A stretch of DNA of 45,196 nucleotides from a virus: positions 1-45,196 of the IMG/VR virus record IMGVR_UViG_3300048554_000805; one strand, 5' to 3'. Positions 853 through 41,966 of the stretch are shown here, piece after piece (position 1 is the first letter of the stretch; the number at the start of each line of letters is the position of its first letter). The notes below the pieces were generated by a model. It made no database searches and was not told the origin of the DNA. It worked only from the letters and a program-made list of their open reading frames with translations. The position numbers and the translations under genes are program-made.

Positions 853-870
853 TTTAACACTATGTTTAAA
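853..870. promoter_or_regulatory. 17-bp dispersed palindrome, capsid leader copy 1
   Basis: Reads TTTAACA-CTA-TGTTTAAA, one inserted T relative to the consensus TTTAACA-N3-TGTTAAA found at about eighteen places in this genome. Confidence 0.55.
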
Positions 871-966
871 GCGACAGTTTCGGTGAGACTGTAGCAACAA
901 AAACACTTCCTTTCATTGCAACAGGGTGAATCTCCTGCGGGGCGGGTTTTATTAAATCGCCCATAG

Positions 967-983
967 TTTAACAAGATGTTAAA
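967..983. promoter_or_regulatory. 17-bp dispersed palindrome, capsid leader copy 2 (perfect)
   Basis: Reads TTTAACA-AGA-TGTTAAA, a perfect 7-3-7 inverted repeat placed directly before the ribosome site of the major capsid gene. It could act as an operator in DNA or as a short hairpin beside the ribosome site in RNA. Confidence 0.7.
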
Positions 984-997
984 ACAGGAGAATCATC

Positions 998-1957
998 ATG
1001 GCGGCAACCCGTCTAACTAATGTAATTGTTCCCTCAATTTTTACCCCTTATACAATTGAGCAATCAGACGTTCGCTCTAACCTGCTCAATAGTGGTATTG
1101 TTACTTCAAGCCCTGCGCTCAATCAGCTAGCAGGTGGGGGAGGAAGTACTTTCAACCTTCCTTTCTTCAAAGACCTTACAGGTGATTCTGAGGTTATTGA
1201 GGACAACACAGCCCTCACAGTTAATGCTATTGATGGGGATCAGAGCCAAATTGGGGTAGCCCTCAACAGAGCCAAATCTTTCGGCTCAAGCTTCTTAGCT
1301 CAATATGTGTCAGGGGAAGACCCTATGCGTGTAATTGGCGATTTGGTCGCTGATTATTGGGTAAGAGAAGAGCAGAAGATTGTTATTAATATTCTAAAGG
1401 CTTTGTTTGGAACAAGTGGGCCAATTGTAAGCACTCATTTGGAAGACCAATCAGCAGCAGCATTAACCAATACAATGATGATTGATGCAATTGCAAATAT
1501 TGGTGATGCCTATGACAAGCTTTCTACCATTGTTTGCCACTCTGCCATTTATCACAGCCTCAGAAAACTTGATCTAGTTCAGTATGTTTCTGAGCCCTCA
1601 AATCTTCCGTTCCAATTCCCTACTTACATGGGAATGAATATTTTGGTTGATGATGGGGTGGAAGTCTCAGGTTCAGCTTACACAACCTACATTTTTGCAA
1701 CAGGTGCATTTAGTAGAGGAGTTGGAACACTTGACCCTGATGATGCGACTGAGATTGATAGAGACAGCCTAAAATCTGAGGATGTCCTAATTAATCGCAG
1801 ACGGTATATCCTGCATCCTAATGGGATGAAGTGGGTGGGTAGCCCTGCAGGTTCAAGCCCAACAAATACTGAACTAGCCACAGCAACCAATTGGAATAAA
1901 GTTTTTGAGAATAAAAATATTCCAATGGTAGCCCTCAAATCCTTGGTTTCTGCTTAA
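998..1957 (+). CDS. Major capsid protein
   Basis: A 319-residue protein that should form the icosahedral shell. It starts MAATRLTNVIVPSIF and shows the typical order of phage coat proteins of the major-capsid-13-like group (HK97 fold): N-terminal arm, Gly-rich loop near residue 46, DLTGD segment, an acidic helix DLVADYWVREEQ near 115-130, and a central domain with VCHSAIYHSLRKLDL. Length is normal for the family. It follows the scaffold and precedes the head-tail connectors. Its own strong ribosome site CAGGAG and the two upstream palindromes suit a highly expressed gene. The family name is from recognition of sequence pattern, not a search. Confidence 0.9.
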   Translation: MAATRLTNVIVPSIFTPYTIEQSDVRSNLLNSGIVTSSPALNQLAGGGGSTFNLPFFKDLTGDSEVIEDNTALTVNAIDGDQSQIGVALNRAKSFGSSFLAQYVSGEDPMRVIGDLVADYWVREEQKIVINILKALFGTSGPIVSTHLEDQSAAALTNTMMIDAIANIGDAYDKLSTIVCHSAIYHSLRKLDLVQYVSEPSNLPFQFPTYMGMNILVDDGVEVSGSAYTTYIFATGAFSRGVGTLDPDDATEIDRDSLKSEDVLINRRRYILHPNGMKWVGSPAGSSPTNTELATATNWNKVFENKNIPMVALKSLVSA

Positions 1958-1959
1958 TC

Positions 1960-2094
1960 ATGGGGATGATTAGTTTCAGACACCTTGAAGAGCAGCAAAA
2001 GGAGCAGAAGAAAGCTGAAGAACAACCACAGCAAGAACCTGCTCCTGTAGCTTCCAAGGAAGAAACCACAAGAAAGGCTGTTAAGAGAAAATGA
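1960..2094 (+). CDS. 44-residue Lys/Glu/Gln-rich head-region protein
   Basis: A short open frame starting at ATG 1960 (alternative ATG 1966) and ending in an ATGA overlap with the next gene at 2091. The product begins MGMISFRHLEEQQ and is otherwise low-complexity, alternating Lys, Glu, Gln, Pro and Ala. It fills the gap between capsid and connector genes exactly, which supports it being real. Small charged proteins at this position are common in phages, some with Rho-N-like domains, but no domain can be claimed here. Confidence 0.6.
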   Translation: MGMISFRHLEEQQKEQKKAEEQPQQEPAPVASKEETTRKAVKRK

Positions 2095-2651: not shown

Positions 2652-2716
2652 TTGGGGGAAAGTGAGCAGACACACTTTTACATGGAAGTTTAACCCCCTT
2701 TTGGATTTGGGCATAA

Positions 2717-3953: not shown

Positions 3954-3958
3954 CTAAC

Positions 3959-3977
3959 TTAAAACATGGAGTTTTAA
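3959..3977. promoter_or_regulatory. Variant dispersed palindrome framing the tail-tube ribosome site
   Basis: Reads TTAAAAC-ATGGA-GTTTTAA, a perfect 7-bp inverted repeat around TGGAG, the ribosome site of the gene starting at 3980. The core AACATGGAGTT is identical to the copy at 36335, but the outer bases differ from the genome consensus. Confidence 0.5.
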
Positions 3978-3979
3978 AA

Positions 3980-5242: not shown

Positions 5243-5244
5243 AA

Positions 5245-5261
5245 TTTAACAAGGAATTAAA
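5245..5261. promoter_or_regulatory. Dispersed palindrome before the tail chaperone gene
   Basis: Reads TTTAACA-AGG-AATTAAA. The AAGGA inside it is the probable ribosome site of the chaperone gene at 5267. Confidence 0.55.
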
Positions 5262-5266
5262 TTGAT

Positions 5267-11709: not shown

Positions 11710-11726
11710 TTTAACAGTGTGTTAAA
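11710..11726. promoter_or_regulatory. Dispersed palindrome abutting a start codon (perfect)
   Basis: Reads TTTAACA-GTG-TGTTAAA, a perfect 7-3-7 inverted repeat whose final A is the first base of ATG 11726. No Shine-Dalgarno sequence is visible, so the palindrome occupies the place of the ribosome site. Confidence 0.7.
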
Positions 11727-15396: not shown

Positions 15397-15983
15397 TGGC
15401 TAGAATTATTCAACTTAGAAGGGACGCATCAGCCAATTGGACTAATGTTGATCCTACACTAGCTCAAGGAGAGTTAGGGCTAGAGACAGATACAAAATAT
15501 TTTAAGCTTGGGGATGGTGTCACTTCTTGGACAAACCTTGAATACAAAGACACTATTGATAATTTGCAGAATGTAAATATTACAAGCATAGCAAATAATG
15601 ATGTTTTAGTTTATGACAGCAGCAACACAGAATGGGTAAACCAAGGGCTTAATATTGCGGATTACTTCCCGACTAATTTGCCTTCAAGTGGCATTGCACT
15701 CAGGAAGTCAGACGGTTCAACAACTGTTTTAAGTGAAACAGGAGGAATTGCCACTTTAGACAATGTGGCTTTGGGGTCAAATGTAACAGGGGTAGGAGGT
15801 ACAGCAACCCAATATTTTGAGCTTTCTTTAGTTGCTGATGGGGCAGGGAACTTAACCAATTTAAATAAATATACTGCTGACCCAACTGATGTAGTTACTT
15901 TGAATGAATTGACAAAAGAGTATTACCTTGGGACTTCAATGGACTTTCAAATTATTAACAATGATTTAGTGATGGTAATATGA
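15396..15983 (+). CDS. Tail fibre protein with Mtd-type N-terminal domain
   Basis: A 195-residue protein whose first 50 residues (IQLRRDASANWTNVDPTLAQGELGLETDTKYFKLGDG, given here in parts: IQLRRDASANW, PTLAQGELGLE, FKLGDGVTSWTNL) match the N-terminal domain of major tropism determinant proteins. That domain forms intertwined trimers and anchors receptor-binding proteins. The remainder is beta-rich and lacks a C-type lectin fold, so this is probably a connector to the next fibres. It overlaps the RCC1 fibre gene by ATGA. Confidence 0.75.
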   Translation: MARIIQLRRDASANWTNVDPTLAQGELGLETDTKYFKLGDGVTSWTNLEYKDTIDNLQNVNITSIANNDVLVYDSSNTEWVNQGLNIADYFPTNLPSSGIALRKSDGSTTVLSETGGIATLDNVALGSNVTGVGGTATQYFELSLVADGAGNLTNLNKYTADPTDVVTLNELTKEYYLGTSMDFQIINNDLVMVI

Positions 15984-17854
15984 GTGTTACTAATGCAATT
16001 GACTATAAAAAAGTAGGCTATCGTTGGAAGGGTGAATACAGCGCATTAAATACTTATGAAAATAATGATGTTGTTCACAAAGAAGGTGCAGCTTGGAAAT
16101 ATAATAGCTCATCCAATGCGTTTGAGATATTTGCAAGGGGTAATATTGACGCATTAGTTAGAGGGGAAATTATAACAGGTGGAAACTATACAACCACAGG
16201 GGTAACAAGTGAAGTTTTAGTGGTTAATTCCTCAGGAACTGAGGTTGAATTTAATCATAGAATGGACAGAAATGGACAGCGAGTAACCCAAATAGCAAGC
16301 TATGGAATAAGTGAAGGCTACCGAATGGGCCATCTTCATGCCGCAAATTATTTCAGTGGCTTATTTTTAATGAATGATGGAACTGTAAGAGGGGTAGGAT
16401 ATAACCACTCAGGGGAACTTGGAACAGGAAATATTGATGGAGATGTTGGGCGAACTCCAAATGTTATTCCATTCCCAAAAGGGACAAGAATTAAGAAAAT
16501 ATTTGGTGGACAACACAGTAATTTTTACATAGATACAGACGATAGGCTTTGGGCTAATGGGCATTACCAAGCTCTTGGAATGAGTACAAGCACTTATCAA
16601 AATTTTACAGGTTCTATCTATTCAAGTAGTCATTTAGAAGTGCCTTTGTGCTTACATGAAGTAATGCCCTCAGTTTTTACAGCCAATGATAAAATTGTTG
16701 CGGTTGTTAGTTATTGGGGTCAATACGGTAGCCATCATGGAACTTTTGCTTTTTCAGACACAGGCAAGGTGTGGTCAGCAGGTCATAATGGTAATGGACA
16801 ATTGGGGATAGGAACAAATACAGACACTTGGGATTTTACACTGATTGAGCTTACTCAAGATGTTCCTATGGATGGGGTAACTTGTGCGCCTTGGGGTGCA
16901 GCAAGTGGGTTAAGGGCTGTAAATGGGGATTATTATGAAGCAGGTTGGCCTTCTTTACTTTGGGGGAATACTGACACAAATGTTTTTAGAAAAGTAGAGG
17001 CAGCAGGGAAAATAAAAATGGCTCAGATGAGCTACCAAAGACAACACAATTCGACAAGCGATTATTATGGTCATGTTTTAGTTCAAGAAAATGGGGATCT
17101 TTGGTTAAAACAAAATAATCCTGCTTATGTTAATGTTGGAAGTTCAGGAATTAATGGCTTAACTAATTCTTCAACTAATTACTTAGATTCCCGACTTAAT
17201 GATTCTTTATGGTGTCTTGGACAAGGTGTAAAAAGAGCTTGGTTTACTGCAAATGGGTATAATGAGTTAATTGTTGAAATGGAAAATGGAGATTATCGAC
17301 ATAGGGGTAATGGTGGTTATCAGACAGGCCCAACCTATAACACAAACAGTTTGCCCACCAATGGGACAGATTTTACAACAAACAACAAATTTCTTTTCGA
17401 TCAAAATTATTACAACAGCAACATCACCAAGTTCATAAATTTCGGTGGGAATATCTACAGATTACACGGTGCTTTAGACAATCAAGGAAGGCTTTTTTTG
17501 GCAGGATACAATTCAAAGGGGATTTTGGGGAATGGTGTTACTTACTCTATGGGGCCATCTGCTAATTATAATATCACAACTGATAATGCAGGATATGACA
17601 TTTATAGCAACAACAGCTTACTTAGACCAACACACACAAATGGCTATCCTTATGTTCCAATAAGAGACGCTATTGTTGATTTTCAAATAATGGGTAGGCT
17701 GTACTATGTATGGAACGTTGGTGAATATAATCAGGCATATTGTTATGCCTTAACAGACAAAGGGGATGTCTATGCTTGGGGCGATTCGGGGCATCATAAT
17801 TTTTTAAATACGACTAATTCAGACCAATATTCACCTGCAAAACTTATTTTTTAG
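15980..17854 (+). CDS. Receptor-binding fibre with RCC1 beta-propeller, copy 1
   Basis: A 624-residue protein. Residues 5-50 (GYRWKGEYSALNTYENNDVVHKEG in part) resemble small chitin-binding-like modules with W.G.Y...DVV. From about residue 125 to the end there are RCC1-type blades: VRGVGYNHSGELGTG, VWSAGHNGNGQLGIG, LFLAGYNSKGILGNG, VYAWGDSGHHNF. Each blade repeats the pattern of a hydrophobic strand, DG, a strand with W/V-x-x-G, then GxLGxG. A seven-bladed propeller at a fibre tip would be a receptor-binding surface. It is followed by a paralogue of the same layout. Confidence 0.8.
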   Translation: MSVTNAIDYKKVGYRWKGEYSALNTYENNDVVHKEGAAWKYNSSSNAFEIFARGNIDALVRGEIITGGNYTTTGVTSEVLVVNSSGTEVEFNHRMDRNGQRVTQIASYGISEGYRMGHLHAANYFSGLFLMNDGTVRGVGYNHSGELGTGNIDGDVGRTPNVIPFPKGTRIKKIFGGQHSNFYIDTDDRLWANGHYQALGMSTSTYQNFTGSIYSSSHLEVPLCLHEVMPSVFTANDKIVAVVSYWGQYGSHHGTFAFSDTGKVWSAGHNGNGQLGIGTNTDTWDFTLIELTQDVPMDGVTCAPWGAASGLRAVNGDYYEAGWPSLLWGNTDTNVFRKVEAAGKIKMAQMSYQRQHNSTSDYYGHVLVQENGDLWLKQNNPAYVNVGSSGINGLTNSSTNYLDSRLNDSLWCLGQGVKRAWFTANGYNELIVEMENGDYRHRGNGGYQTGPTYNTNSLPTNGTDFTTNNKFLFDQNYYNSNITKFINFGGNIYRLHGALDNQGRLFLAGYNSKGILGNGVTYSMGPSANYNITTDNAGYDIYSNNSLLRPTHTNGYPYVPIRDAIVDFQIMGRLYYVWNVGEYNQAYCYALTDKGDVYAWGDSGHHNFLNTTNSDQYSPAKLIF

Positions 17855-17864
17855 GAGTAGATAA

Positions 17865-19685
17865 ATGACAAATATAGTTCTTGGGAAAGTTGCCTTTACT
17901 TGGCGAGGTGCTTTTGATGCAACAACAACTTATTATTTACAAGATGTTGTTAGTTACACAGATGGAAGTGGTTTTACAAATACCTATGTTTGTAAGGTGG
18001 CAACTGCTGCCGCAGGAGCATTTGATTCAACTAATAATTTTGAGTTGTTTGCGTCAGGGACAGGGGTTGCTTTAAACAGTGGAGATTTAGTTTATAACAA
18101 TGGGACAACTATTGTTGCTTTACCAATTGGGACAGCGAACCAAGTTTTAGAAGTTGATGCAACAACTCTATTACCAACTTGGACAAGTATTCCAACAGCC
18201 TCCTCAAGAAGAGTAAAATACTTAGAAACTTATGACCATATGCAGTTGAACACAGTTTCAAGGTGGGCTGTGATGGAAGATGATTCTTTAGTTGGTTGGG
18301 GTTATAACGGTCATTATTTTATCAGAGGAGCAAATTCTACTACTTATTCTAACCCTGCTCCAATAGCTTTTCCCAAAGGATTTGCAGGAGTAAAAACAAC
18401 CACAGGATTGAATGGTTTTACTGTCCCTTTATTTTGGCATAATCACCGATTCGCTTGTTTTTGTGTAGATAAAAATAGTGATTTATGGGTTTGGGGTGAA
18501 TATCAAACATCATCATATGATGCAAAAGGGGTTGGGGCTTCAAAACATCTTTATCAACCATTTAATCTTTCAACTTATAATCATGTTGATAATGCCCTTT
18601 ATGGCAAAGATATTGTGCAGATCGGGCATCAATGTGGACAAGAAGCTGATGAATCTCAGCATGTTATAGACTCAGATGGTCGAGTTTATGGCTGTGGTTA
18701 TAATGCTTATGGACAGCTTGGGATGGGGAATGTGTCTCATGATACAACCACAGGGAGAAACTTTTTTGCAGAACTCCCATTTTTTGGGAATTTAAAATCA
18801 ACAAGTAATATAACTGTTACTCAGGTTGCCAAAACAAGAGAAGAATATTCAACAACTTATTTTGTTACCTCAGATAATAAAGTTTATTCAGTAGGGTATA
18901 ATGCTAATGGTGCTTTGGGCAATGGAACGACAGGGACAGGTACTGCTTCTATTCCTTACCTTATGAATGGTGGATCTTTGGACTCATCTAATGGTGACAC
19001 AAACGGGATAATTTCTAAGGTTTTTGCGGGGCCGGAATTTGCGTTTATTTTAACAACAGATGGGAATTTGAGTTTTGTAGGAAGGTCACTCCACGGAGTA
19101 TCAGGGTTAGGAAATGGATCTGATATAGATATTACCACCCCAACAATAACCATTAGCTCAGGAAATGTATCTCAAGTAATCTGCCCAAGATATGATTATT
19201 ACTCAGCTTGGGTTTTGTTATCAGATGGGACAGTGAAAGCCACAGGTTATAATGGTTATGGGAAACTTGGCAATGGCAATACAACACAGCAGAACACTTG
19301 GATTGATGTTCTTTTGACAGCAGCAGATGGTAATACTTCTGATGCACCTGTAGGAGCAGGGGAAACAGTAACAAAGATATTTACAGGCAACTCAGGCTCT
19401 TACGAAAGGTTTGGTGTTTTAACTGATGCAGGTAAAGTTTATGTCTGTGGTTATGGAGGAAACGGGACAGGTATTGGACATGCAAATGCAACCAACCAAT
19501 TTTTAAGAGAAGTACCTTGTCAGAAAACCATCACAGATGCAAAATTTTATGGCTATAATGAATATGGTGGAATCGAGGTTTTAACTGATGATGGACAATT
19601 ATGGGCAGCAGGAGCAGGGGATTATAGGATGCTAGGAGGTGAGGATGATGATGACAATTACACATTAACCCCGATAAAGTTTTGA
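17865..19685 (+). CDS. Receptor-binding fibre with RCC1 beta-propeller, copy 2
   Basis: A 606-residue paralogue of the preceding fibre with its own strong ribosome site AGGAG (17854-17858). The N-terminal module (FTWRGAFDATTTYYLQDVV) is the same W.G.Y..DVV type. Blades are clearer than in copy 1: VYGCGYNAYGQLGMG, VYSVGYNANGALGNG, VKATGYNGYGKLGNG, VYVCGYGGNGTGIG, LWAAGAGDYRMLGG, plus two degenerate ones, giving seven. The divergence between the two copies is high, suggesting old duplication and selection on receptor choice. Role inferred from position and propeller fold. Confidence 0.8.
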   Translation: MTNIVLGKVAFTWRGAFDATTTYYLQDVVSYTDGSGFTNTYVCKVATAAAGAFDSTNNFELFASGTGVALNSGDLVYNNGTTIVALPIGTANQVLEVDATTLLPTWTSIPTASSRRVKYLETYDHMQLNTVSRWAVMEDDSLVGWGYNGHYFIRGANSTTYSNPAPIAFPKGFAGVKTTTGLNGFTVPLFWHNHRFACFCVDKNSDLWVWGEYQTSSYDAKGVGASKHLYQPFNLSTYNHVDNALYGKDIVQIGHQCGQEADESQHVIDSDGRVYGCGYNAYGQLGMGNVSHDTTTGRNFFAELPFFGNLKSTSNITVTQVAKTREEYSTTYFVTSDNKVYSVGYNANGALGNGTTGTGTASIPYLMNGGSLDSSNGDTNGIISKVFAGPEFAFILTTDGNLSFVGRSLHGVSGLGNGSDIDITTPTITISSGNVSQVICPRYDYYSAWVLLSDGTVKATGYNGYGKLGNGNTTQQNTWIDVLLTAADGNTSDAPVGAGETVTKIFTGNSGSYERFGVLTDAGKVYVCGYGGNGTGIGHANATNQFLREVPCQKTITDAKFYGYNEYGGIEVLTDDGQLWAAGAGDYRMLGGEDDDDNYTLTPIKF

Positions 19686-19686
19686 T

Positions 19687-19703
19687 TTTAACACCACATT
19701 AAA
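19687..19703. promoter_or_regulatory. Dispersed palindrome before the lysis cassette
   Basis: Reads TTTAACA-CCA-CATTAAA, followed by the ribosome site AGAGG for ATG 19718. A further copy, CTTAACA-CCA-CGTTAAC, lies inside the gene at 19985-20001. Confidence 0.55.
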
Positions 19704-19717: not shown

Positions 19718-20062
19718 ATGCCAACAGAGCCCAATACTTTAATTTCCTTAGTTCAAGATTTGGGCTTTGGTATGGCTTCCTTAACCTTCTCGGGTTGGTT
19801 GATTGTTTTTCTTTTAAGGGGGTTTGAAAAAGAGCGGAATATTTGGCTTTCTAAAGATTCTGATAGTGATATCCGTGTTAGTGAACTTCTACGAGAAAAT
19901 TCACAACTACAACAGGCAACAACAGAGAAGTTAGCAAATTTACAAGCAAGCCAATCTCAACAGCTTTTACAAGTACATGAGAAACTTAACACCACGTTAA
20001 CTAATATGACTGTTGCCATTTCTGAACTATCTCAAAAGATGGACTCATTAAAAGGTAAATAA
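19718..20062 (+). CDS. Membrane-anchored coiled-coil protein, possible holin
   Basis: A 114-residue protein with one transmembrane segment at about 16-34 (FGMASLTFSGWLIVFLL) and a long Gln/Leu-rich coiled coil to the end. Small membrane proteins with this layout in front of an endolysin often serve as holins or holin partners. It heads a run of short genes leading to the GH24 lysozyme. It overlaps the next gene by TAATG. The holin role is inference; spanin-like or regulatory functions are possible. Confidence 0.5.
   Translation: MPTEPNTLISLVQDLGFGMASLTFSGWLIVFLLRGFEKERNIWLSKDSDSDIRVSELLRENSQLQQATTEKLANLQASQSQQLLQVHEKLNTTLTNMTVAISELSQKMDSLKGK
19985..20001. promoter_or_regulatory. Dispersed palindrome inside the possible holin gene
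   Basis: Reads CTTAACA-CCA-CGTTAAC, same 7-3-7 shape as the intergenic copies. It lies in coding sequence, so it may be a real site or chance. Confidence 0.35.
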
Positions 20063-21953: not shown

Positions 21954-22005
21954 CGCTTGTTTTGGGAACAAGAGGTCGCTGGTTCGAACCCAGTCACCCC
22001 GACCA
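21954..22005 (+). other. attP: attP core: 3' half of a tRNA-Pro (TGG) gene
   Basis: From 21956 the sequence folds as the 3' part of a tRNA: anticodon stem CTTGT / ACAAG with loop TTTGGGA (anticodon TGG, proline), variable loop AGGTC, T arm GCTGG-TTCGAAC-CCAGT, acceptor strand CACCCCG, discriminator A and encoded CCA. No 5' half precedes it, so it is not a functional tRNA gene. Integration here would rebuild the host tRNA-Pro gene. It lies beside the integrase. Confidence 0.9.
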
Positions 22006-22049
22006 TGAAACGCCTTTAGTCCGCATCAATTTCTTTTAATTCCCCTTAT

Positions 22050-22079: not shown

Positions 22080-23213
22080 TTACTCCCCAACCAATTCCAT
22101 TGCATCTTTAGTTTCTAACTGTGTGTTATTGAAATAAATCATAGTTGTTTCAATCTTTTTGTGTCCTAAGATTTTTTGAACATCTACTAAGGGAACGCCT
22201 TTTGTTAAAAGCTCAGTCGCTAAAGTGTACCTGAACCCATGTGTTGGAGATGGATCTTGTAAGATGCCTAGCTCTTTATTTATCTTTTTAAAGGTGCGTG
22301 TGATTGGGTCAAGTTCAGACCAAAAAGGGCTCACCCCTTCAGATTTTAAAAAGTGTCCTTCAGCTTGTCTTTGTAAGCTCATCAAATATTGATACAAAAC
22401 AGAACCAATCTGAACCACTCTTTCTTCTCCCCCTTTCACTTGCTGATTTTCTGTTTCTTTAATTGTGATTGTTTTTTCAATCAGATTGATCTGCTCCCAT
22501 TTCAAATGCACAAGCTCACCCCCTCTTGCCCCTGTGTATCTCGCTAGCATAAAAAAACGGAATACAAGAGCCCACCTTTTTTGATACCTCCCACCTTCTT
22601 TAATTTTTCGGGAAATATAGGATTCAATCTTTTTGCAGTCTTCAACAGAATAAATGGTTGGGTTTTTCTTTGTGTATTTCAGACGTTTAATTTTTGGGCG
22701 TTTCAAGATAATGCCTTGTTCAACAAGCCAATTCAGCCATGTCCCTAATTGGATCAGATAGCTGTTGATTGTAATGGGCCTGAGTTGCTTGGCTTTCAGA
22801 AATGCTGTAAATTTACTAATTAGATCAATATTGAGGTCAATAGCTTCTTGATCCCCAAACATCTCCACAAATGGGCAGAGAGATGCTTTGAGGTGGATGA
22901 TGGAATTTTTGGAGAGGAGAGGGGTCTGAATCTTCAGATAAATTTGGAAGACTTGGCGGATTGATTTGGTGGGAGGTTGGGCAACAGCTTTTTCTTTGGT
23001 TTCAAGCTCTTTCAGTTTTTTCAACCAAAGCTGTTCTAGGAGAATATCCTTTTCTAAAAGCGAACGGGCTACTCTCCCCCTTTGTGTTGTTTTTACAATA
23101 AGGTCAGACTCATTAATCAAGAAATGGCGAACCCTCCCATTTTCAGAATCAAAGATGCCATAATAATATTTCCTATCTGCTCTGTAGCCAATTTTCTTGC
23201 GACTTCTTCCCAC
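22080..23213 (-). CDS. int: Tyrosine recombinase, phage integrase
   Basis: A 377-residue site-specific recombinase starting at GTG 23213, overlapping the TAG stop of the upstream gene by one base. An N-terminal beta arm-binding part (residues 1-60) is followed by a SAM-like core-binding domain (about 78-165) and the catalytic domain. Catalytic residues visible: Arg in YTGARGGELVHLKW, His and Arg in THGFRYTLATELL, His in ILGHKKIETT, and Tyr in MIYFN. Length is normal. It should recombine the tRNA-Pro core at 21954 with the host copy, using the arm repeats beside it. Confidence 0.95.
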   Translation of the reverse strand: MGRSRKKIGYRADRKYYYGIFDSENGRVRHFLINESDLIVKTTQRGRVARSLLEKDILLEQLWLKKLKELETKEKAVAQPPTKSIRQVFQIYLKIQTPLLSKNSIIHLKASLCPFVEMFGDQEAIDLNIDLISKFTAFLKAKQLRPITINSYLIQLGTWLNWLVEQGIILKRPKIKRLKYTKKNPTIYSVEDCKKIESYISRKIKEGGRYQKRWALVFRFFMLARYTGARGGELVHLKWEQINLIEKTITIKETENQQVKGGEERVVQIGSVLYQYLMSLQRQAEGHFLKSEGVSPFWSELDPITRTFKKINKELGILQDPSPTHGFRYTLATELLTKGVPLVDVQKILGHKKIETTMIYFNNTQLETKDAMELVGE

Positions 23214-23530
23214 TAAACCCCGAAATTTTCTTTTTCTGCAAGGGTTGCATTTATTCTCATAGAAGCTAAAGGAACAGCCATTTTTTCAGACTTCAAATCC
23301 TTTAAATAGTCTTCAAGCCAAGATATCACCACTTCATCAGTTACCTGAGAATTAGCGAAATGCTCCGCTAGGGCTCTTGATAAATCAGCGATTCTTTCTG
23401 TGCTTAATTCTCTCTGTGATTTTCCTAGTAAGCCCTCATCTAAGGCTTTACTGTCAATTCCTAGCTGTTGACATAAATTATCACGCCTCTTTTTCAGCCC
23501 GTTCGCTATATCGTTTTCTTCTGCTTTCAT
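23213..23530 (-). CDS. Unknown protein coupled to the integrase
   Basis: A 105-residue mostly helical protein with a good ribosome site (AAGGAAGGGC before ATG 23530). Its first 50 bp overlap the end of the repressor gene and its stop overlaps the integrase start. The mid-part LSRALAEHFANSQVTDEVVISWLEDYL looks like a small helical domain. Position suggests an excisionase-like or lysogeny-associated role, but no winged-helix excisionase pattern is visible. Confidence 0.6.
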   Translation of the reverse strand: MKAEENDIANGLKKRRDNLCQQLGIDSKALDEGLLGKSQRELSTERIADLSRALAEHFANSQVTDEVVISWLEDYLKDLKSEKMAVPLASMRINATLAEKENFGV

Positions 23531-23849
23531 CTTGCCCTTCCTTTAAGACGACCAATCTTTCCAAGATTTGTACTTGCTCCCTAAGTGATTGGATTTCTTC
23601 CTGCTGATCCTTGAAAACAGCTTTCTGTGACCCTGCACCATAAAGAAGCCAAGTTATATTATATCCTAATTTTGCTAGTCCATTTAATACTGATTTGGGT
23701 AAATCTCTCTCAGGGTTGTTAGGGTTTTGGAAATTTCCTAAAACTTGTGGGGATACTCCTAAAGCTTGGCAAAATTCCGTCTTGGATCTGTAAGGAGATT
23801 CTTCAATAATTTGATTGAGTCTGTCATTTACTTTTACTTTATTATACAT
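23481..23849 (-). CDS. CI-type repressor without peptidase domain
   Basis: A 122-residue protein. Residues 8-68 match the phage CI helix-turn-helix family: SKTEFCQALGVSPQVLGNF as the helix-turn-helix, then the characteristic LAKLGYNITWLLYG. Instead of an S24 LexA-like peptidase domain the rest is a heptad-rich coiled coil (EEIQSLREQVQILERLVVL) and a basic tail. It is therefore not self-cleaving and must be inactivated by another route. It is the first gene of the lysogeny block with integrase and lies opposite the exonuclease operon. It is a candidate binder of the 17-bp palindromes. Confidence 0.8.
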   Translation of the reverse strand: MYNKVKVNDRLNQIIEESPYRSKTEFCQALGVSPQVLGNFQNPNNPERDLPKSVLNGLAKLGYNITWLLYGAGSQKAVFKDQQEEIQSLREQVQILERLVVLKEGQDESRRKRYSERAEKEA

Positions 23850-24207: not shown

Positions 24208-24236
24208 TTGATCTTTAACATAGAGTTAAATATAAT
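24208..24236 (+). promoter_or_regulatory. Early promoter with operator in the spacer
   Basis: -35 TTGATC (24208-24213), then the 17-bp palindrome TTTAACA-TAG-AGTTAAA (24214-24230) filling the spacer exactly, then -10 TATAAT (24231-24236). A protein bound to the palindrome would block RNA polymerase. It should drive the exonuclease-ERF-replication operon starting at 24339. Confidence 0.7.
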
Positions 24237-24338
24237 CTTTGGATTATATTTGCATATAATGAATATTTAACACCGAGCAGGATTTACCGCAAGTTTTAAT
24301 TAAGAAGAAGTTAATTAATATAATTAAAGGTAAACATA

Positions 24339-25211
24339 ATGTTAACAAGACCCGACCACAAAAGTTATATAGGCGGCAGTGATGCCGCAGCATTGATGGG
24401 GCAGGGATACAAAACACCCCTTCAAGTTTTTAATGAAAAGATTGGGAGGAAAGAGCCCGAAGATTTAAGTGAAAATATAGCTGTTCAGCTTGGCAGTTAT
24501 TTAGAACCATTTGTTTTAAATGAGGCAACAAAAATACTAGGGAATCCTATTATTCCTTCTAACTTTAAACGCCATGTTAAATATAAGTTTATCGGGGGGC
24601 ATGTTGATGGCCTAATTAATTGGAATCCCCCCGCAATTGTTGAAACCAAAACGGGAATGTCTAGGAATTACAGACTTGGACTTCCCCCCTATATAGAGTG
24701 GCAGGTTAGGCACTACATGATGATTTTTGGGAGCCCTGTCTGCTATGTGGTGGCCCTGCTCTTAGATCAGAGAAAGACAGTCAGATTTGACATTGAGCGA
24801 GACTTAGAAATTGAGGAGAGAATGATTGAAACCTATTTAGACTTTTGGCAGAGAGTTGAAGAAGAAAGACCCCCTACGCCTTCACAGCCTGTTGATGTGG
24901 ATTTAATCCAATTACAGGGGGCTCAGGAAGCAACTGATGAGGAACTAGACATCTGTCTAGACCTCAGAGACATAAAAATCCAATTGGCTGAAATAAACAG
25001 CAGAAAGGAGGAGAAGGAGAATCAATTAAAAATGGCTTTACTCAAAAGAGGCTCTGAATCTCTCACTTTGTCCAATGATGGTTCGCCTTTGGTGAAGTGG
25101 GGGGAGCAGCAAAGAACAACCCTAAATCAGAAGGAGTTAAAAAAAGCACATCCCGAAATTTGTGACCTTTTCCAAGTCACAAAGACATCTAGAGTTTTTC
25201 AAGTATATTGA
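24339..25211 (+). CDS. YqaJ/lambda-type exonuclease
   Basis: A 290-residue 5'-3' double-strand exonuclease of the YqaJ viral recombinase family, partner of the annealing protein encoded next. The N-terminal IGGSDAAALMG, the QLGSYLEPFVLNEA segment, the metal-binding GGHVDGLI (Asp) and AIVETKTG (Glu-x-Lys), and WQVRHYMMIFG are all family motifs of the PD-(D/E)xK core. Residues 200-240 form a coiled-coil linker. Start ATG 24339 has AAAGGT upstream. First gene of the early operon. Confidence 0.92.
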   Translation: MLTRPDHKSYIGGSDAAALMGQGYKTPLQVFNEKIGRKEPEDLSENIAVQLGSYLEPFVLNEATKILGNPIIPSNFKRHVKYKFIGGHVDGLINWNPPAIVETKTGMSRNYRLGLPPYIEWQVRHYMMIFGSPVCYVVALLLDQRKTVRFDIERDLEIEERMIETYLDFWQRVEEERPPTPSQPVDVDLIQLQGAQEATDEELDICLDLRDIKIQLAEINSRKEEKENQLKMALLKRGSESLTLSNDGSPLVKWGEQQRTTLNQKELKKAHPEICDLFQVTKTSRVFQVY

Positions 25212-25943: not shown

Positions 25944-25960
25944 TTTAACATCATTTTAAA
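25944..25960. promoter_or_regulatory. Dispersed palindrome before the replication gene
   Basis: Reads TTTAACA-TCA-TTTTAAA, in the 40-bp gap before ATG 25980, upstream of ribosome site AGAGG. Confidence 0.5.
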
Positions 25961-27372: not shown

Positions 27373-27389
27373 TTTAACGCTGTGTTGAT
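27373..27389. promoter_or_regulatory. Dispersed palindrome before the VRR-NUC gene
   Basis: Reads TTTAACG-CTG-TGTTGAT in the 67-bp gap before ATG 27410, followed by TATAAG at 27393-27398. Confidence 0.5.
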
Positions 27390-29098: not shown

Positions 29099-29105
29099 AA
29101 TTATT

Positions 29106-29122
29106 TTTAATAAGGCGTTAAA
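29106..29122. promoter_or_regulatory. Dispersed palindrome upstream of the 29131 promoter
   Basis: Reads TTTAATA-AGG-CGTTAAA, eight bases before the -35 element. Confidence 0.5.
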
Positions 29123-29130
29123 AAAAAGTG

Positions 29131-29160
29131 TTGACATTAAATCTCATGTTAACATATTAT
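29131..29160 (+). promoter_or_regulatory. Promoter with operator-like spacer
   Basis: -35 TTGACA (29131-29136), 18-bp spacer, -10 TATTAT (29155-29160). The spacer begins, directly after the -35 box, with TTAAATC-TCA-TGTTAAC, whose right half is a perfect dispersed-palindrome half. Start of transcription near 29167 gives a 46-nt leader for the gene at 29213. Confidence 0.7.
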
Positions 29161-29212
29161 AGGTTCACACGCTGAGTGAGTCAGCAAAAACAAACCCCAA
29201 CGAGGAAACAAA

Positions 29213-29389
29213 ATGAGAACGACAAAAGACATGAACACACAAGCAGACATTGCACTTCAGATCATGAATCACACAAAGAGCGGGCTTTCTTCAACAGAAG
29301 CTTGGGAGGCGATCTTTGGAGAAGGGAGTCAGGAGTTGATGAAATCTTGGGACATGAAAAAAGTTTGCAAGAAATTCAGAAGCCTCTGA
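29213..29389 (+). CDS. 58-residue protein under the 29131 promoter
   Basis: ATG 29213 has the ribosome site GAGGAA at 29203. The product reads MNTQADIALQIMNHTKSG then STEAWEAIFGEGSQELMKSWDMKK and ends with a basic FRSL. It is predicted as three helices, a plausible small DNA-binding or antirepressor fold, though no motif is certain. This frame is preferred to the overlapping 74-residue frame at 29176, whose composition is unlike protein. It is followed directly by a terminator, so the transcript is short and abundant-looking. Confidence 0.65.
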   Translation: MRTTKDMNTQADIALQIMNHTKSGLSSTEAWEAIFGEGSQELMKSWDMKKVCKKFRSL

Positions 29390-29399
29390 GGGGTGAATA

Positions 29400-29428
29400 A
29401 GAGGCATCAAGTTGGTGTCTCTTTTTAA
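29400..29428 (+). terminator. Rho-independent terminator
   Basis: AGAGGCATCA, loop AGT, TGGTGTCTCT, then TTTTTAATT. Ten-bp stem including two G-U pairs. It closes the 29213 transcription unit. Confidence 0.75.
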
Positions 29429-29429
29429 T

Positions 29430-29690
29430 TCCTTAGATACCCCAAGCCACTTCCCTCAGGGATTTACGGGGTGACAATTGAGACTCAGCACTGACCTGAA
29501 AAGGTAAGTAGAGAACGAAGACTTGAACGAGTGCTGTTTAGAAAGACTTCCTCACTGAGAAAATCAGGGGGTAGCGATAAAAAGAAGTGTCATGGATGAT
29601 ATTAGCTTTTTTGCATTGCGTAAGTCACAGCCGAATGGCTGTAGAGATCAACTCAATAAAGAGTTTGTCTCCTAAGCCATTTAACTTTTT
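29430..29690 (+). ncRNA. Candidate structured non-coding region
   Basis: A 313-bp gap between genes (29390-29702). Beyond the terminator it has ACCCC/GGGGT (29439-29472) enclosing TCCC/GGGA; CAGCACT (29486-29492) pairing with AGTGCTG (29530-29536) and enclosing ACCT-GAAA-AGGT, a GNRA tetraloop hairpin; ACAGCC-GAAT-GGCTGT (29627-29642); and AACTC/GAGTT inside GAGA/TCTC (29644-29671). A 27-residue frame from ATG 29592 overlaps the last two hairpins and is an alternative explanation. Class unknown. Confidence 0.4.
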
Positions 29691-29702
29691 GAGGTATTTA
29701 AA

Positions 29703-31146: not shown

Positions 31147-31171
31147 GGGGGGCTTTGCTCCCCTTTATTTT
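31147..31171 (+). terminator. Rho-independent terminator
   Basis: GGGGGGC-TTT-GCTCCCC (one G-U pair) followed by TTTATTTT. Eight bases after the H1-like gene. A sister hairpin with loop TCT occurs at 32528. Confidence 0.75.
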
Positions 31172-31185
31172 AACAAGGAGTTTAA
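31169..31185. promoter_or_regulatory. Dispersed palindrome containing a ribosome site
   Basis: Reads TTTAACA-AGG-AGTTTAA; the AAGGAG within it is the ribosome site for ATG 31188. Confidence 0.55.
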
Positions 31186-32803: not shown

Positions 32804-32861
32804 GTAAGCAAAACTATTTACCGGTAAGCAAAACTATTTACCGGTAAGTAAAACTATTTAC
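32804..32861 (+). repeat. Three tandem 20-bp iterons
   Basis: GTAAGCAAAACTATTTAC at 32804, the same at 32824, and GTAAGTAAAACTATTTAC at 32844, each followed by CG or TG, so the period is exactly 20 bp. Each unit is itself an imperfect inverted repeat (CGGTAA...TTACCG around the middle copy). The block is non-coding and lies just before the second leader hairpin. Confidence 0.85.
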
Positions 32862-35671: not shown

Positions 35672-35677
35672 AGCAGC

Positions 35678-35803: not shown

Positions 35804-35811
35804 GGAGATAA

Positions 35812-36316: not shown

Positions 36317-36334
36317 CATTTTGGCAGACAACTT

Positions 36335-36351
36335 TTTAACATGGAGTTAAA
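36335..36351. promoter_or_regulatory. Dispersed palindrome after the RHH gene
   Basis: Reads TTTAACA-TGG-AGTTAAA; GGAG inside it is the ribosome site for ATG 36358. Confidence 0.6.
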
Positions 36352-36357
36352 AAAATT

Positions 36358-36582
36358 ATGCGAACAAGACAGGATCTTTTAATAGCTAACAGTGTTTTTT
36401 GTAGAGACTTCAAATTATGGGATCGCCTTGAAAGAGTAACTAAGTTGCTTATCAGAATGGAACTTTACCAAGGGTTCAATATTGGCGAAAGCTATTGGCA
36501 TTTAACAAGGAGGCAGACCGAAATTTATGATCTATTGAAAATGCGGTACTTTGAAAACAGAAAATCATTAACAGGATGTTAA
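36358..36582 (+). CDS. Unknown early protein (74 residues)
   Basis: Basic, Leu/Arg-rich helical protein (DFKLWDRLERVTKLLIRMELYQ). Its end (SLTGC) overlaps a palindrome copy, and the next gene starts directly after. Not recognised. Confidence 0.55.
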   Translation: MRTRQDLLIANSVFCRDFKLWDRLERVTKLLIRMELYQGFNIGESYWHLTRRQTEIYDLLKMRYFENRKSLTGC

Positions 36583-36583
36583 A
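36567..36583. promoter_or_regulatory. Dispersed palindrome at a gene junction
   Basis: Reads ATTAACA-GGA-TGTTAAA, overlapping the stop of the upstream gene and holding AGGA for ATG 36585. Confidence 0.6.
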
Positions 36584-36584
36584 A

Positions 36585-37095: not shown

Positions 37096-37099
37096 AGGA

Positions 37100-37351
37100 A
37101 TGAGCAAAAAACTCTATTGGTCTGAGCTTGAGAAGGTCTGTCTGAAGCAAGGCTTTGTGAAAGAGGACTTTATTGGACTTGTGAAGGATATTTCCCCAAG
37201 TTCTGAACAGTTGGCTTCTATGATCAGAGGGATAAGGGACAGGGATGTTTTTTCAGCCCTCCTAGAGTCCCAAAAGGATAACTTTAACCCTGAGCATAGG
37301 GCATTGATAAAAGAAAGGAGAGAAGCCCAAAATATAGCCCCTGCTAGTTAA
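37100..37351 (+). CDS. Unknown protein, last early gene (83 residues)
   Basis: GAGGTG precedes ATG 37100. Helical: YWSELEKVCLKQGFVKEDFIGLV and SEQLASMIRGIRDRDVFSALL. Its stop overlaps the stop of the opposing RHH regulator by four bases, ending the early operon. Not recognised. Confidence 0.55.
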   Translation: MSKKLYWSELEKVCLKQGFVKEDFIGLVKDISPSSEQLASMIRGIRDRDVFSALLESQKDNFNPEHRALIKERREAQNIAPAS

Positions 37352-37815
37352 GCCGCCTTTTTTTTGCGGGTAATCATATCTTGAATTACTCGCAAATCCT
37401 CCTCAGGAAGCCCCTTTCTCAACTCCTCAATTATTTCCTCTACAATCAAAGAGTGTGAGCAGTTTCTCGCCTGTGCAACCAATCCCAAGTGTCTATAAAT
37501 TTCTAGCTCAGGCTGAAAATGGATAGTGACAGGTTTTGATTTCTTGGAAGTCTCTTTAATCAATTCTCCTGTTTTGTTCACTTCTAACTTAGCAATCAGC
37601 CTTGAAAGTAAATTGATTCTGCTTTCAGCAAAAAGAAAACAATAAGTGTCCAAAAACTCTGCATGGTCTTGAGTTAAAGTTATTGTTGTTCTCATCTTTC
37701 CATCTTTGCCCCGATTTGCCACTCTGTTTAAAATAACAGATAACTCATCTTCAGCTTTCTCCCCGAAAATTTCTCTCCATCTATCCCAAATTTTGTCTTC
37801 CACAATAATTTCCAT
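37348..37815 (-). CDS. Tandem ribbon-helix-helix regulator
   Basis: A 155-residue protein, the only minus-strand gene outside the lysogeny block. It carries two ribbon-helix-helix units: residues about 41-80 (RTTITLTQDHAEFLDTYCFL then ESRINLLSRLIAKL) and about 95-137 (KPVTIHFQPELEIYRHLGLV then NCSHSLIVEEIIEEL). Two units in one chain can form a complete RHH fold or bridge operators. Its promoter region contains two copies of the dispersed palindrome (37867, 37931), suggesting autoregulation and control of the divergent late operon. Confidence 0.75.
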   Translation of the reverse strand: MEIIVEDKIWDRWREIFGEKAEDELSVILNRVANRGKDGKMRTTITLTQDHAEFLDTYCFLFAESRINLLSRLIAKLEVNKTGELIKETSKKSKPVTIHFQPELEIYRHLGLVAQARNCSHSLIVEEIIEELRKGLPEEDLRVIQDMITRKKKAA

Positions 37816-37866
37816 TTCAGCCTAATACTCCAAGAGTTTGAACAATAGTTTGCAATAATGTCTCAA

Positions 37867-37883
37867 TTTAACATGAGGTTAAA
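37867..37883. promoter_or_regulatory. Dispersed palindrome upstream of the tandem RHH gene
   Basis: Reads TTTAACA-TGA-GGTTAAA, 52 bp before the RHH start. Confidence 0.65.
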
Positions 37884-37924
37884 ATACCGCAAGCATTATT
37901 CAAGGCTATCAATGCAAAGTTGCT

Positions 37925-37953
37925 TGACATTTAACACTATGTTAACGAATTTT
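37925..37953 (+). promoter_or_regulatory. -35 box followed by dispersed palindrome, late/packaging promoter candidate
   Basis: TTGACA (37925-37930) is followed directly by TTTAACA-CTA-TGTTAAC (37931-37947), the same register as at 24208 and 29131. A good -10 box is lacking (GAATTT at 37948-37953), so the promoter may need an activator. It faces the operon starting at 38015. Confidence 0.55.
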
Positions 37954-38014
37954 AATGTTAGGCTAGAAATGAATAATTTACAGATAATCACTTAGTTTAT
38001 TGTTTGGCTGTTTA

Positions 38015-38545: not shown

Positions 38546-38555
38546 ACTCGAATTT

Positions 38556-38572
38556 TTTAACACCATATGAAA
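38556..38572. promoter_or_regulatory. Dispersed palindrome overlapping the ParB-like start
   Basis: Reads TTTAACA-CCA-TATGAAA with ATG 38567 inside the right half. As at 11710, no Shine-Dalgarno sequence is visible. Confidence 0.5.
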
Positions 38573-39217: not shown

Positions 39218-40052
39218 ATACCCTGTTTATATTATTAGTAAAGGGAGATGGAAGAGCAGACTTACAAGCAAAGCTTTGGAGAAAAGAAAAATTCCTTATC
39301 ACATTGTGATAGAGCCCCAAGAATTTGCGGATTATGCTGCTGTAATTGATAAGAGTAAAATTCTTGTTTTGCCCTTTTCCAATCTTGGACAGGGAAGCAT
39401 ACCTGCAAGAAATTGGGTTTGGGAAGATAGCATTTCAAAAGGTTATGAAAGACATTGGATTTTAGATGATAATATTGATGCCTTTTACAGGCTGAATAAT
39501 AACATAAAATTTAGGACAACTGACGGGGCTTCTTTTTGTGCTATTGAGGATTTTGTTGAGCGATATAAAAATGTTCCTATGGCAGGTATGCAGTATGAGT
39601 CACTTGTAAAAAGAAAAACAAAAGTCCCTCCATTTATTTTAAATACAAGGATTTACTCAGCTATCTTACTTTCCAATAAGATCCCCCACAGGTGGAGAGG
39701 AAGATATAACGAAGACACTGATTTATCTTTGAGAATTCTAAAAGATGGGTTTTGTACTTTGCTCTTTCAAGCCTTTTTAGCAAAAAAAACTGCAACCATG
39801 AGAATGAAAGGAGGGAATACTGATCAGCTTTATCAACAGAATGAAAAGTTTGATGGGCGTTTAGCTATGGCGCAAAGTTTGGCAGAGCAACACCCTGACA
39901 TTTGCAAAGTAATCCGCAGGTTTAATAGATGGCAGCATTTGGTTGATTATTCGCCATTTAAAAAGAATAAACTTATAAAAAAGGAAAGCTTGGGAGTTAC
40001 TAAAGGTAAAAATGAATATGGGATGAAAATGAGGCGTAAGAATGGGAAATAA
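39207..40052 (+). CDS. TET-associated-type glycosyltransferase
   Basis: A 281-residue GT-A-like enzyme. The pattern matches the TAGT family described in phages with modified DNA bases: YPVYIISKGRW, VIEPQEFADY, LPFSNLGQGSIPARNWVW, HWILDDNIDAFYRLN (DxD-like metal site), FILNTRIYSAIL, RWRGRYNEDTDLSLRILKDG and KGGNTDQLY. The family transfers sugar to hydroxylated bases in DNA in known contexts. No TET/JBP oxygenase or hydroxymethylase is encoded here, so the substrate is unknown. Lies between the ParB-like gene and terminase. Confidence 0.85.
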   Translation: MNPRYPVYIISKGRWKSRLTSKALEKRKIPYHIVIEPQEFADYAAVIDKSKILVLPFSNLGQGSIPARNWVWEDSISKGYERHWILDDNIDAFYRLNNNIKFRTTDGASFCAIEDFVERYKNVPMAGMQYESLVKRKTKVPPFILNTRIYSAILLSNKIPHRWRGRYNEDTDLSLRILKDGFCTLLFQAFLAKKTATMRMKGGNTDQLYQQNEKFDGRLAMAQSLAEQHPDICKVIRRFNRWQHLVDYSPFKKNKLIKKESLGVTKGKNEYGMKMRRKNGK

Positions 40053-40674
40053 AGAATTATACCCTGTGATGGTTGAGCCCTATTTAGATGAAGTGGAAGA
40101 GCTATCAAGAGAAGGGTACAATGAAAAAGAAATAGCCTATGTTTTCGGGGTTAGCGAAAGAGCTTGGCGAACTTATAAAAAGAAATATGAGGCGCTTGCT
40201 GCCGCTGTAAAAGCAGGGAGAAGGAAATCACAGAAAGAAATTACAAATGCCCTCTACAAAAGAGCTACAGGGTTTAAAGAGCAGGTTGAAGAATTAGTAG
40301 CTGTGAGAGATGCCCAAAACAACATTGTGAGGCATGATGTAAAAAGGGTGAGCAAGTATTTTCCCCCTGATATGGGAGCGATTAGGATGTGGCTGAATTA
40401 TCGACATCCTGACAAATGGGGCGATAAGGTTTTGGATAGGCAGACAGAAATAGAGAAGGTCAGAGAGGTTTATAAAAAGAGAGAATTGCAAGGGTGGAAT
40501 GCCTTGGAAACTGCAAGAGCATTAGAAGTTGAAGGGATTTCAATTCCTGAGAGTCTGCGCCTTGAGTTGGCTAAGGAAACAAAAGAAACCATTACAACTT
40601 TAGAAAGCAATGCAATCCGAATTGTTTTGCCAAGTGAGCTTGAAGAAAAGGAAGCTGAAGAGGCTGAAAGTTAA
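40042..40674 (+). CDS. terS: Terminase small subunit
   Basis: A 210-residue protein. An N-terminal helix-turn-helix (NEKEIAYVFGVSERAWRTYKKKY) binds the packaging site. ALYKRATGFKEQ and PPDMGAIRMWLNYRHPDKW are typical of phage small terminases. The C-terminal half is helical for ring oligomerisation. It overlaps the glycosyltransferase by 11 bp and precedes the large subunit by 2 bp. Confidence 0.88.
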   Translation: MGNKELYPVMVEPYLDEVEELSREGYNEKEIAYVFGVSERAWRTYKKKYEALAAAVKAGRRKSQKEITNALYKRATGFKEQVEELVAVRDAQNNIVRHDVKRVSKYFPPDMGAIRMWLNYRHPDKWGDKVLDRQTEIEKVREVYKKRELQGWNALETARALEVEGISIPESLRLELAKETKETITTLESNAIRIVLPSELEEKEAEEAES

Positions 40675-40676
40675 TA

Positions 40677-41966
40677 GTGCCTCAGGATATTCAGCTTTTA
40701 TCTCATCAGTATAAGGTCTTAGCCTCTAGGAAGAGGGAGATTTTTCTAGGTGGTGGGGTTGGGGCAGGTAAAACAATGATTGGCTCATTGTGGGCGATTC
40801 TGAAAGCTAGAAGAACCCCTAAGGATGTATATGGGCTAGTAGTTAGTAATACCTACCCTCAACTGTATGACACAACAATTAGGGCTCTTTATGAAATAGC
40901 AGATAAAGCAGGGGTAAAAATGTTACCTGCTCAAATACCAAGAGGGAGAGGCCCAACAGATTTATTAGTACAGACAGCCACAGGACAAACTAGAATTTTA
41001 ATTAGATCATTAGAACATTATGAAAGGCTTTCGGGGTTAGAAGTTGGTTGGTTTTGGGCTGATGAAGTTTGGCAAACAAGAAAGGAAGCAATTGATGTTT
41101 TAAATGCCCGTTTGAGAGATAAAAGAATGGGCAGATTACAGAGCCTTTACACTTCAACTTTAGATGACCCCTCAACTTGGATGTATCAGAGATTTGTTGA
41201 GCAGGTTAATCCTAAAAGAACAGACGTTTTTTATGCCAAAACAGCAGACAACCCAAACCTCCCGAAAGATTATATTGAAACCCTCAAGTCCACTTACTCA
41301 GAAAGCATGTATAGGCGCATGGTTCTTTCTGAGTGGGTTGCCCTTGATCAGAATAGGATTTACACCTCATTCGCCCGTGAAAATAATGTATCAACAGAAG
41401 TTCATTATGAAGAAGCCCTCCCTCTCCTTTGGAGTCATGATTTTAATATTGGGGTGGGGAAGCCCATGTCTTCCTGTGTTTTACAGTACCATCCAAAGAC
41501 TGATGAATATCATGTTATTGATGAGATCATACTTGATAAATCAGATACCCATGATGCAGTCACAGAATTTCTTTCCCGTTACCCCTCCTCAGGGGTGGTA
41601 ATCTATGGCGATGCAAGTGGACAAGCTAGAGACACAAGAAGCAGATTAACAGACTTTGAAATACTAAGAAGAGCAGGATTCACAGAGCAAAAAGTACCAA
41701 GATCAAACCCTCCTGTTAGAGAAAGACACAATTTAATTAACGCTCTGTTAAAATCAGCAAATGGGAAGGTTAGAATAAAGATTAGTCCAAAATGCAGAAC
41801 CTTAATAAAAGGGTTGGATACTGTCCATTTAAAGAAGGGGGCTAACTATGTGGAAGATGACAGCCAAAGGGAACAGCATGTAACGACAGCCTTGGGTTAT
41901 TGCCTGTTTGAAGAGCTAGGAAGTCGCAAGGGTCAAATGAGTCAAATCAGAGTGAAAGGGATTTAA
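40677..41966 (+). CDS. terL: Terminase large subunit
   Basis: A 429-residue packaging motor starting at GTG. ATPase: Walker A GGGVGAGKT near residue 25, Walker B VGWFWADE near 123. Nuclease with RNase H-like Asp residues in SHDFNIG, VIYGDASG and the final HVTTALGY region. Full length for the family. It cuts and pumps DNA into the procapsid. Confidence 0.95.
   Translation: MPQDIQLLSHQYKVLASRKREIFLGGGVGAGKTMIGSLWAILKARRTPKDVYGLVVSNTYPQLYDTTIRALYEIADKAGVKMLPAQIPRGRGPTDLLVQTATGQTRILIRSLEHYERLSGLEVGWFWADEVWQTRKEAIDVLNARLRDKRMGRLQSLYTSTLDDPSTWMYQRFVEQVNPKRTDVFYAKTADNPNLPKDYIETLKSTYSESMYRRMVLSEWVALDQNRIYTSFARENNVSTEVHYEEALPLLWSHDFNIGVGKPMSSCVLQYHPKTDEYHVIDEIILDKSDTHDAVTEFLSRYPSSGVVIYGDASGQARDTRSRLTDFEILRRAGFTEQKVPRSNPPVRERHNLINALLKSANGKVRIKISPKCRTLIKGLDTVHLKKGANYVEDDSQREQHVTTALGYCLFEELGSRKGQMSQIRVKGI
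41736..41752. promoter_or_regulatory. Palindrome-like sequence inside terminase
   Basis: Reads ATTAACG-CTC-TGTTAAA within the terL coding sequence. Same shape as the intergenic sites, but may be chance. Confidence 0.3.

Follow-up and report, generated by a model that had tools for sequence, protein, structure and literature searches.

The window analysed here, a stretch of 45,196 nt (IMG/VR record IMGVR_UViG_3300048554_000805), is a circularly closed tailed-phage genome with an exact 127-bp repeat common to both ends, and the element in question is a 17-bp near-palindrome, TTTAACA-N3-TGTTAAA, which recurs between its genes. The phage is an uncultured marine one. The genes include those for a tyrosine integrase, terminase, a major head protein and the RecE/Erf recombination proteins, as well as a tape-measure-sized gene and, assigned by eye, a single-strand-binding-like gene. 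The left half of the window has no named-phage match at the nucleotide level, the best terminase matches among named phages are about 30% identical, and relatives are known from metagenomes only. The relatives found in IMG/VR are one that is complete and syntenic, G001 (IMGVR_UViG_2778261618_000001, NZFK01000029.1; 48.4 kb), with mostly 70–80% nucleotide identity, and six that are fragments (L005, L007–L010, and L018). The phage is temperate, because it has the integrase gene (22080–23213, minus strand; PHROG integrase, E = 1.2e-40) and a likely attP, the 3′ part of a tRNA-Pro gene with anticodon TGG (21954–22010, plus strand), recognised from its sequence, with an identical 57 bp in G001.

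The initial annotation had described a palindrome family of 7-3-7 shape, and this description is borne out by counting. With up to three mismatches, TTTAACA-N3-TGTTAAA has 31 matches in the window, compared with 8.10 ± 2.68 in shuffled sequences, and none of the 100 shuffles reached 31. With up to two mismatches, 17 places match, compared with two for the reversed control pattern. When gaps of 0–13 between the half-sites were compared, only a gap of 3 was enriched, with 17 cases in the window and 15 in G001, while the other gaps gave 0–4. A matrix was then built from 14 intergenic sites picked by the left arm TTTAACA alone, which avoids circularity. At a threshold of ≥ 10 bits it gave 23 matches in the window, 19 of them touching non-coding DNA, which makes up 8% of the genome, versus 0.3 in shuffled non-coding DNA; shuffling does not reproduce the intergenic number. 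In G001, which was not used in building the matrix, 20 matches were found, 14 touching non-coding DNA (0.5 expected). Since positions G12, T13, T14, A15, A16, and A17 are each significantly enriched although the sites were chosen by the left arm only, the two-fold symmetry is real and not an artefact of selection. Unseeded motif discovery by simple expectation-maximization settled on A-runs. A site is present in 13 of the 25 gaps between genes that are at least 15 bp long. The site family is real and comprises some 15–20 copies of one nearly symmetric word between genes.

The coordinates first listed by eye are right in general, but need several changes. The site given as 37931 begins at 37930, the supposed variant at 3959, TTAAAACATGGAGTTTT, does not fit the motif, and the copy at 19985 is within a gene and is not kept in G001. 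The list was also incomplete, since it lacked matches at 24330 and 34090, the latter intragenic, as well as the match in recE at 24565, which is kept, and the lone left arm at 41962, which seven phages share. All sites described below read on the plus strand.

Three sites are found directly behind a −35 box, those at 24214, 29137, and 37930, and the first two are inside a recognisable −35/−10 pair. The site TTTAACATAGAGTTAAA (24214–24230), which precedes the recE, erf, and replication genes, fills exactly the 17-bp promoter spacer between TTGATC at 24208 and TATAAT ending at 24236, and in G001 the site is enclosed by TTGATT-17-TATTAT. The site TTAAATCTCATGTTAAC (29137–29153), earlier taken for a mere half, is a weaker full site of 10.4 bits, and it lies within the spacer of TTGACA(29131)-18-TATTAT (ending at 29160), an arrangement that is found in the window and in G001. 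At 31 bp, or about three helical turns, upstream of it is TTTAATAAGGCGTTAAA (29106–29122), which is identical in G001. The site TTTAACACTATGTTAAC (37930–37946) stands immediately behind the −35 box TTGACA (37924–37929), and CTTGAC(A/T)TTTAACAC..TGTTAA(C/T)GA, with the TTGAC box directly preceding the site, is kept in three phages. It is 63 bp from TTTAACATGAGGTTAAA (37867–37883), which is 51 bp upstream of a gene for a tandem ribbon-helix-helix (RHH) protein and occupies the same place in G001 and L008. The paired sites are spaced 31 bp and 63–64 bp, close to whole helical turns. A reading of the sites as late promoters, with TTAACA as the −35 box and a −10 box further on, was dropped after the site contexts had been inspected.

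Two of these sites are located in a stretch, 29100–29702, that is 91–94% identical to G001, non-coding DNA included, compared with mostly 70–80% for the rest. It contains a strong promoter, an open reading frame of 58 aa (29213–29389; 97% identical), a terminator-like hairpin (29399–29423), and about 280 nt of conserved non-coding DNA, and had no Rfam match. This stretch may encode an early regulator together with a structured RNA.

Most of the other sites are found in the short gaps between a stop and a start codon. Two are upstream of the major head protein gene: TTTAACACTATGTTTAA (853–869; 19.5 bits), the left arm of which is kept in four relatives, and TTTAACAAGATGTTAAA (967–983), a perfect match 14 bp before the gene that is also kept in four relatives. 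TTTAACAGTGTGTTAAA (11710–11726) overlaps the next start codon by its final base, TTTAACACCACATTAAA (19687–19703) has a stop codon directly before it and TTTAACAAGGAGTTAAA as its counterpart in G001, and ATTAACAGGATGTTAAA (36567–36583), kept in two relatives, spans a stop codon, with the next ATG (36585) 1 bp further on. The weaker site GTAAACATAATGTTAAC (24330–24346; 11.3 bits), for which G001 has GTTAATAGAATGTTAAT, is over the recE start codon. Before a replication-initiation-like gene is TTTAACATCATTTTAAA (25944–25960), and TTTAACGCTGTGTTGAT (27373–27389; 11.7 bits) is represented in G001 by TTTAACACTGTGTTGAA. Three sites carry a Shine-Dalgarno sequence, AAGGA(G) or GGAG, over the spacer and right arm, as do some of the relatives' sites. 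These are TTTAACAAGGAATTAAA (5245–5261; AAGGA), TTTAACAAGGAGTTTAA (31169–31185; AAGGAG), just before which is a terminator-like hairpin (31147–31163), and TTTAACATGGAGTTAAA (36335–36351; GGAG), with 22.8 bits and kept in two relatives. Several sites are without a Shine-Dalgarno sequence, and the distance from the end of the site to the start codon ranges from −8 to +128. The tie to gene starts stated earlier is loose, and it is largely a by-product of the location of the sites in short stop-to-start gaps.

Some copies depart from this pattern. An intragenic site in recE, TTAAACGCCATGTTAAA (24565–24581; 17.8 bits), differs in G001 in the spacer only. The listed copy at 41736, ATTAACGCTCTGTTAAA (41736–41752), is within the terminase gene, yet its arms are kept in seven phages, synonymous positions included, while its spacer varies. 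At TTTAACACCATATGAAA (38556–38572), the weak right arm contains the start codon of a ParB-like gene, and the left arm is kept in two relatives. Finally, the left half-site TTTAACA at 41962–41978 is over the terminase stop codon, and the next start codon stands where a right arm would be; TTTAACA is kept in seven phages, and the right side is variable.

The sites are much better conserved than the DNA around them. At 15 orthologous intergenic sites, which are the window matches alignable in G001, the core is identical at 147 of 150 positions, compared with 46 of 75 for the spacer and 243 of 333 for the flanks (p ~3e-13). The expectation that relatives would keep the positions of the sites thus holds for these 15, while the matches at 44505 and 19985 are not kept. 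The symmetry claimed earlier is significant, but the arms are unequal: the orthologous intergenic sites have three left-arm mismatches in the window and two in G001, compared with 17 and 24, respectively, in the right arm. Where the arms of a site are unequal, the better arm is upstream in 11 of 12 cases in the window and in all 12 in G001, and exact TTTAACA in non-coding DNA is found forward and reverse in ratios of 14 : 3 and 14 : 2 in the two phages. The overlap with Shine-Dalgarno sequences explains part of the right-arm decay.

Do the sites act as DNA or as RNA? An element of the mRNA could be a hairpin, a sequence near start codons that controls translation, comparable to the start-associated sequences (SAS) found in cluster K mycobacteriophages, or an antitermination signal like boxA. 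Such an element would fit the direction of the sites, which point with transcription and often adjoin start codons, the Shine-Dalgarno sequences in several of them, and the retention of the left arm alone at 38556 and 41962. Furthermore, the left arm matches the 3′ half of boxA, TGCTCTTTAACA. However, the arm changes between phages are one-sided in 25 cases and paired in none, and therefore selection acts on the DNA and not on a hairpin. The RNA fold of four of nine sites is worth only 0 to −0.7 kcal·mol−1, and the three sites behind a −35 box are upstream of the expected transcription start. Many sites also have no Shine-Dalgarno sequence, and their distance to the start codon is variable. 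A hairpin was rejected for the absence of paired changes and the failure of several sites to fold, a purely translational element for the promoter sites and the variable start distance, and boxA because its GCTC half is absent. We consider an mRNA element highly improbable overall. The sites are most likely DNA elements for a protein with two-fold symmetry.

Which protein might bind them? The likeliest predicted binder, to judge from sequence and a structure model, is a small helix-turn-helix (HTH) protein of the λ type (XRE/Cro-CI) with 122 aa, encoded beside the integrase gene (23481–23849, minus strand; PHROG transcriptional regulator, E = 0.0005). It is 81% identical in G001, with an unchanged recognition helix. 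A single-sequence structure model, with a mean predicted local distance difference test (pLDDT) score of 76, shows a DNA-binding domain of five helices and, at the C-terminus, a long helix. The best matches to this fold, which are weak, are ClgR, SinR, 434 Cro and repressor, P22 c2, and phage HTH proteins.

The rival binder is the tandem RHH protein (37348–37815, minus strand), in which two strand-helix-helix repeats can be recognised by eye. The operator scheme would be the same, with two molecules, each a built-in dimer, occupying one half-site apiece, and the protein would regulate early and late genes, its own among them, in the lytic phase. It has to be taken seriously on account of the two conserved sites upstream of its gene. 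These strong sites, at 37867 and 37930, are kept in three phages in which the flanks are only 62–68% identical, and the strand residues R42, T44, T97, and H99 of the protein are kept as well. In contrast, T46, which would face the DNA by analogy with CopG, is replaced by A and by L in relatives that have an unchanged motif, and the gene is away from the integrase and immunity region. The protein had no family match, its homologues in G001 and L008 are 64% and 54% identical, and its structure model is poor (pLDDT 42) and gives no support. We regard binding by the RHH protein as possible, though doubtful. No distant relatives of either protein were found among sequenced phages, and IMG/VR gave only the relatives already known.

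The sites might also be targets of a host regulator, the foremost candidate being the alphaproteobacterial CtrA, whose sites have the form TTAA-N7-TTAA, in which case the phage would read the host cell cycle. This deserves care because TTAA-N7-TTAA, the best-kept bases, is the strict core of the motif, and because some phages do have CtrA sites in their genomes. The spacing is enriched, with 18 copies, 12 of which touch non-coding DNA, and CtrA sites occur in intergenic DNA of Alphaproteobacteria phages (PMC9437464). The G001 contig, moreover, is binned as Rickettsiales (MED721). However, Caulobacter CtrA sites are direct repeats, TTAAC-N6-TTAAC, in which the second TTAA is followed by C (PMC3751295). 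In the phage the base at this place is A in 12 of 14 sites and C in one of 14, and the right TTAA has a G before it. CtrA acts at the −35 position, and most window sites are too close to the start codon for a promoter to fit in between. In phages, CtrA sites cluster in one gap or in a terminal repeat (PMC9437464), while those of the window are spread. The Rickettsiales-labelled bin is probably not the host and the G001 contig probably mis-binned, because the tRNA-Pro genes of the bin do not match the phage attP. No match to the tRNA-Pro sequence of attP was found in 74 genomes of the phylum of this metagenome-assembled genome besides the phage contig itself, and a search of IMG/VR gave nothing further. 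The metagenome-assembled genome has 90 motif matches, compared with 73 for the reversed control, and about 15 of the 90 are on the phage contig; this small excess shows that the motif belongs to the phage. We think it very unlikely that the sites serve CtrA or another host regulator. Distant phages with 32–36% identical terminase or head protein had zero motif copies, and therefore the motif is confined to the group of the window phage.

Our preferred reading is that a phage repressor, for which the HTH protein is the favoured candidate, probably acts through sites both at promoters and inside operons. A dimer of this λ-type repressor would grip the two TTTAACA half-sites of its target, TTTAACANNNTGTTAAA DNA, from one face, since the half-sites are 10 bp apart. 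Repressor bound at 24214, 29137, and 37930 would block initiation. The remaining intergenic sites, which lie within operons, are between stop and start codons and point with transcription; repressor bound there would halt leaking or invading transcription in the manner of a stoperator. The late genes would thereby be kept silent in the lysogen, and immunity would be conferred. Several observations weigh against this reading. The start of the HTH gene itself has no clear site, so that autoregulation is not evident, while the RHH gene has two just upstream. The fold matches of the HTH protein have E = 0.02 or worse and come from a single-sequence model with a pLDDT of 76, the −10 box at 37930 is poor, and the two sites with a left arm only, 38556 and 41962, are not explained by a symmetric dimer on its own.

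The comparison with the stoperators of mycobacteriophage L5, as genome-wide sites for one regulator, is well supported by the enrichment, the intergenic placement, the strict spacing, and the conserved positions. In L5, more than 20 such sites are distributed along the genome, within promoters as well as in the short spaces between genes, and they point in the direction of transcription (PMC9283540). The window likewise has many copies in such places (19 intergenic vs 0.3, two of them in promoter spacers), and their orientation follows transcription. A contrast with L5 was drawn earlier from their symmetry, but in orientation these sites are like those of L5. Unlike the window sites, those of L5 are asymmetric, span 13 bp, and are recognised by a monomeric protein that has a stoperator domain besides its HTH. 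The window combines a 17-bp near-palindrome with a 122-aa HTH protein, the C-terminal half of which is modelled as one long helix. The layout matches that of the L5 stoperators, and the sites would work in a similar way, but because of this difference in the site the system is not an L5-type member. In the Bacillus phage SPβ, a 15-bp motif, SPBRE, is found at promoters and intergenic regions throughout the prophage and serves a single lysogeny repressor, MrpR (PMC10516654). One short motif is similarly repeated at promoters and between genes in the window, but MrpR has a tyrosine-recombinase fold and the motif sequence differs. The conserved inverted repeats (CIRs) of the Streptomyces phage φC31 number about 18; they too are palindromes of similar length, bound by a repressor and scattered across intergenic DNA, but their sequence and repressor differ from those considered here.

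The operators of λ CI and P22 c2 are 17–18 bp long with half-sites about one helical turn apart, and the P22 half-sites also contain TTTAA. The window sites resemble such operators in being palindromes with half-sites about 10 bp apart that overlap early promoters, in a genome with a Cro/CI-type HTH gene near the integrase. They are found genome-wide, however, while λ CI and P22 c2 have few sites in two clusters. The SAS repeats of cluster K are near starts with a Shine-Dalgarno sequence, and their associated inverted repeats have a better-kept left arm (PMC3203893). SAS differ in being restricted to the non-structural half of the genome, where they precede start codons by 3–7 bp, while the window sites also fill promoters and their distances vary.

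Few phages, namely the L5 group, SPβ, and φC31, are on record as having repressor sites throughout the genome. The present example comes from a group of uncultured aquatic phages, with site positions kept in up to seven relatives, and suggests that many-point silencing of prophages is more widespread. The orientation of the near-palindromes also raises the question of whether a symmetric repressor, like the L5 monomer, depends on the direction of its site to halt elongation. It is possible, though less likely than not, that a symmetric λ-type repressor uses unequal, oriented palindromes as direction-dependent stoperators throughout the genome, some fused with a Shine-Dalgarno sequence and some reduced to the upstream half. 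Orientation-dependent silencing would then have evolved independently of the monomeric mycobacteriophage repressors.

Two further features of the window were noted. Two adjoining large genes at 15980–19685 are 82.7% and 91.6% identical to G001; the first has RCC1-like repeats, the second appears alike by eye, and their position suggests that they encode tail proteins. In addition, a 20-bp unit, GTAAGCAAAACTATTTACCG, occurs in an intergenic gap at 32804–32861 as three nearly perfect copies in tandem.

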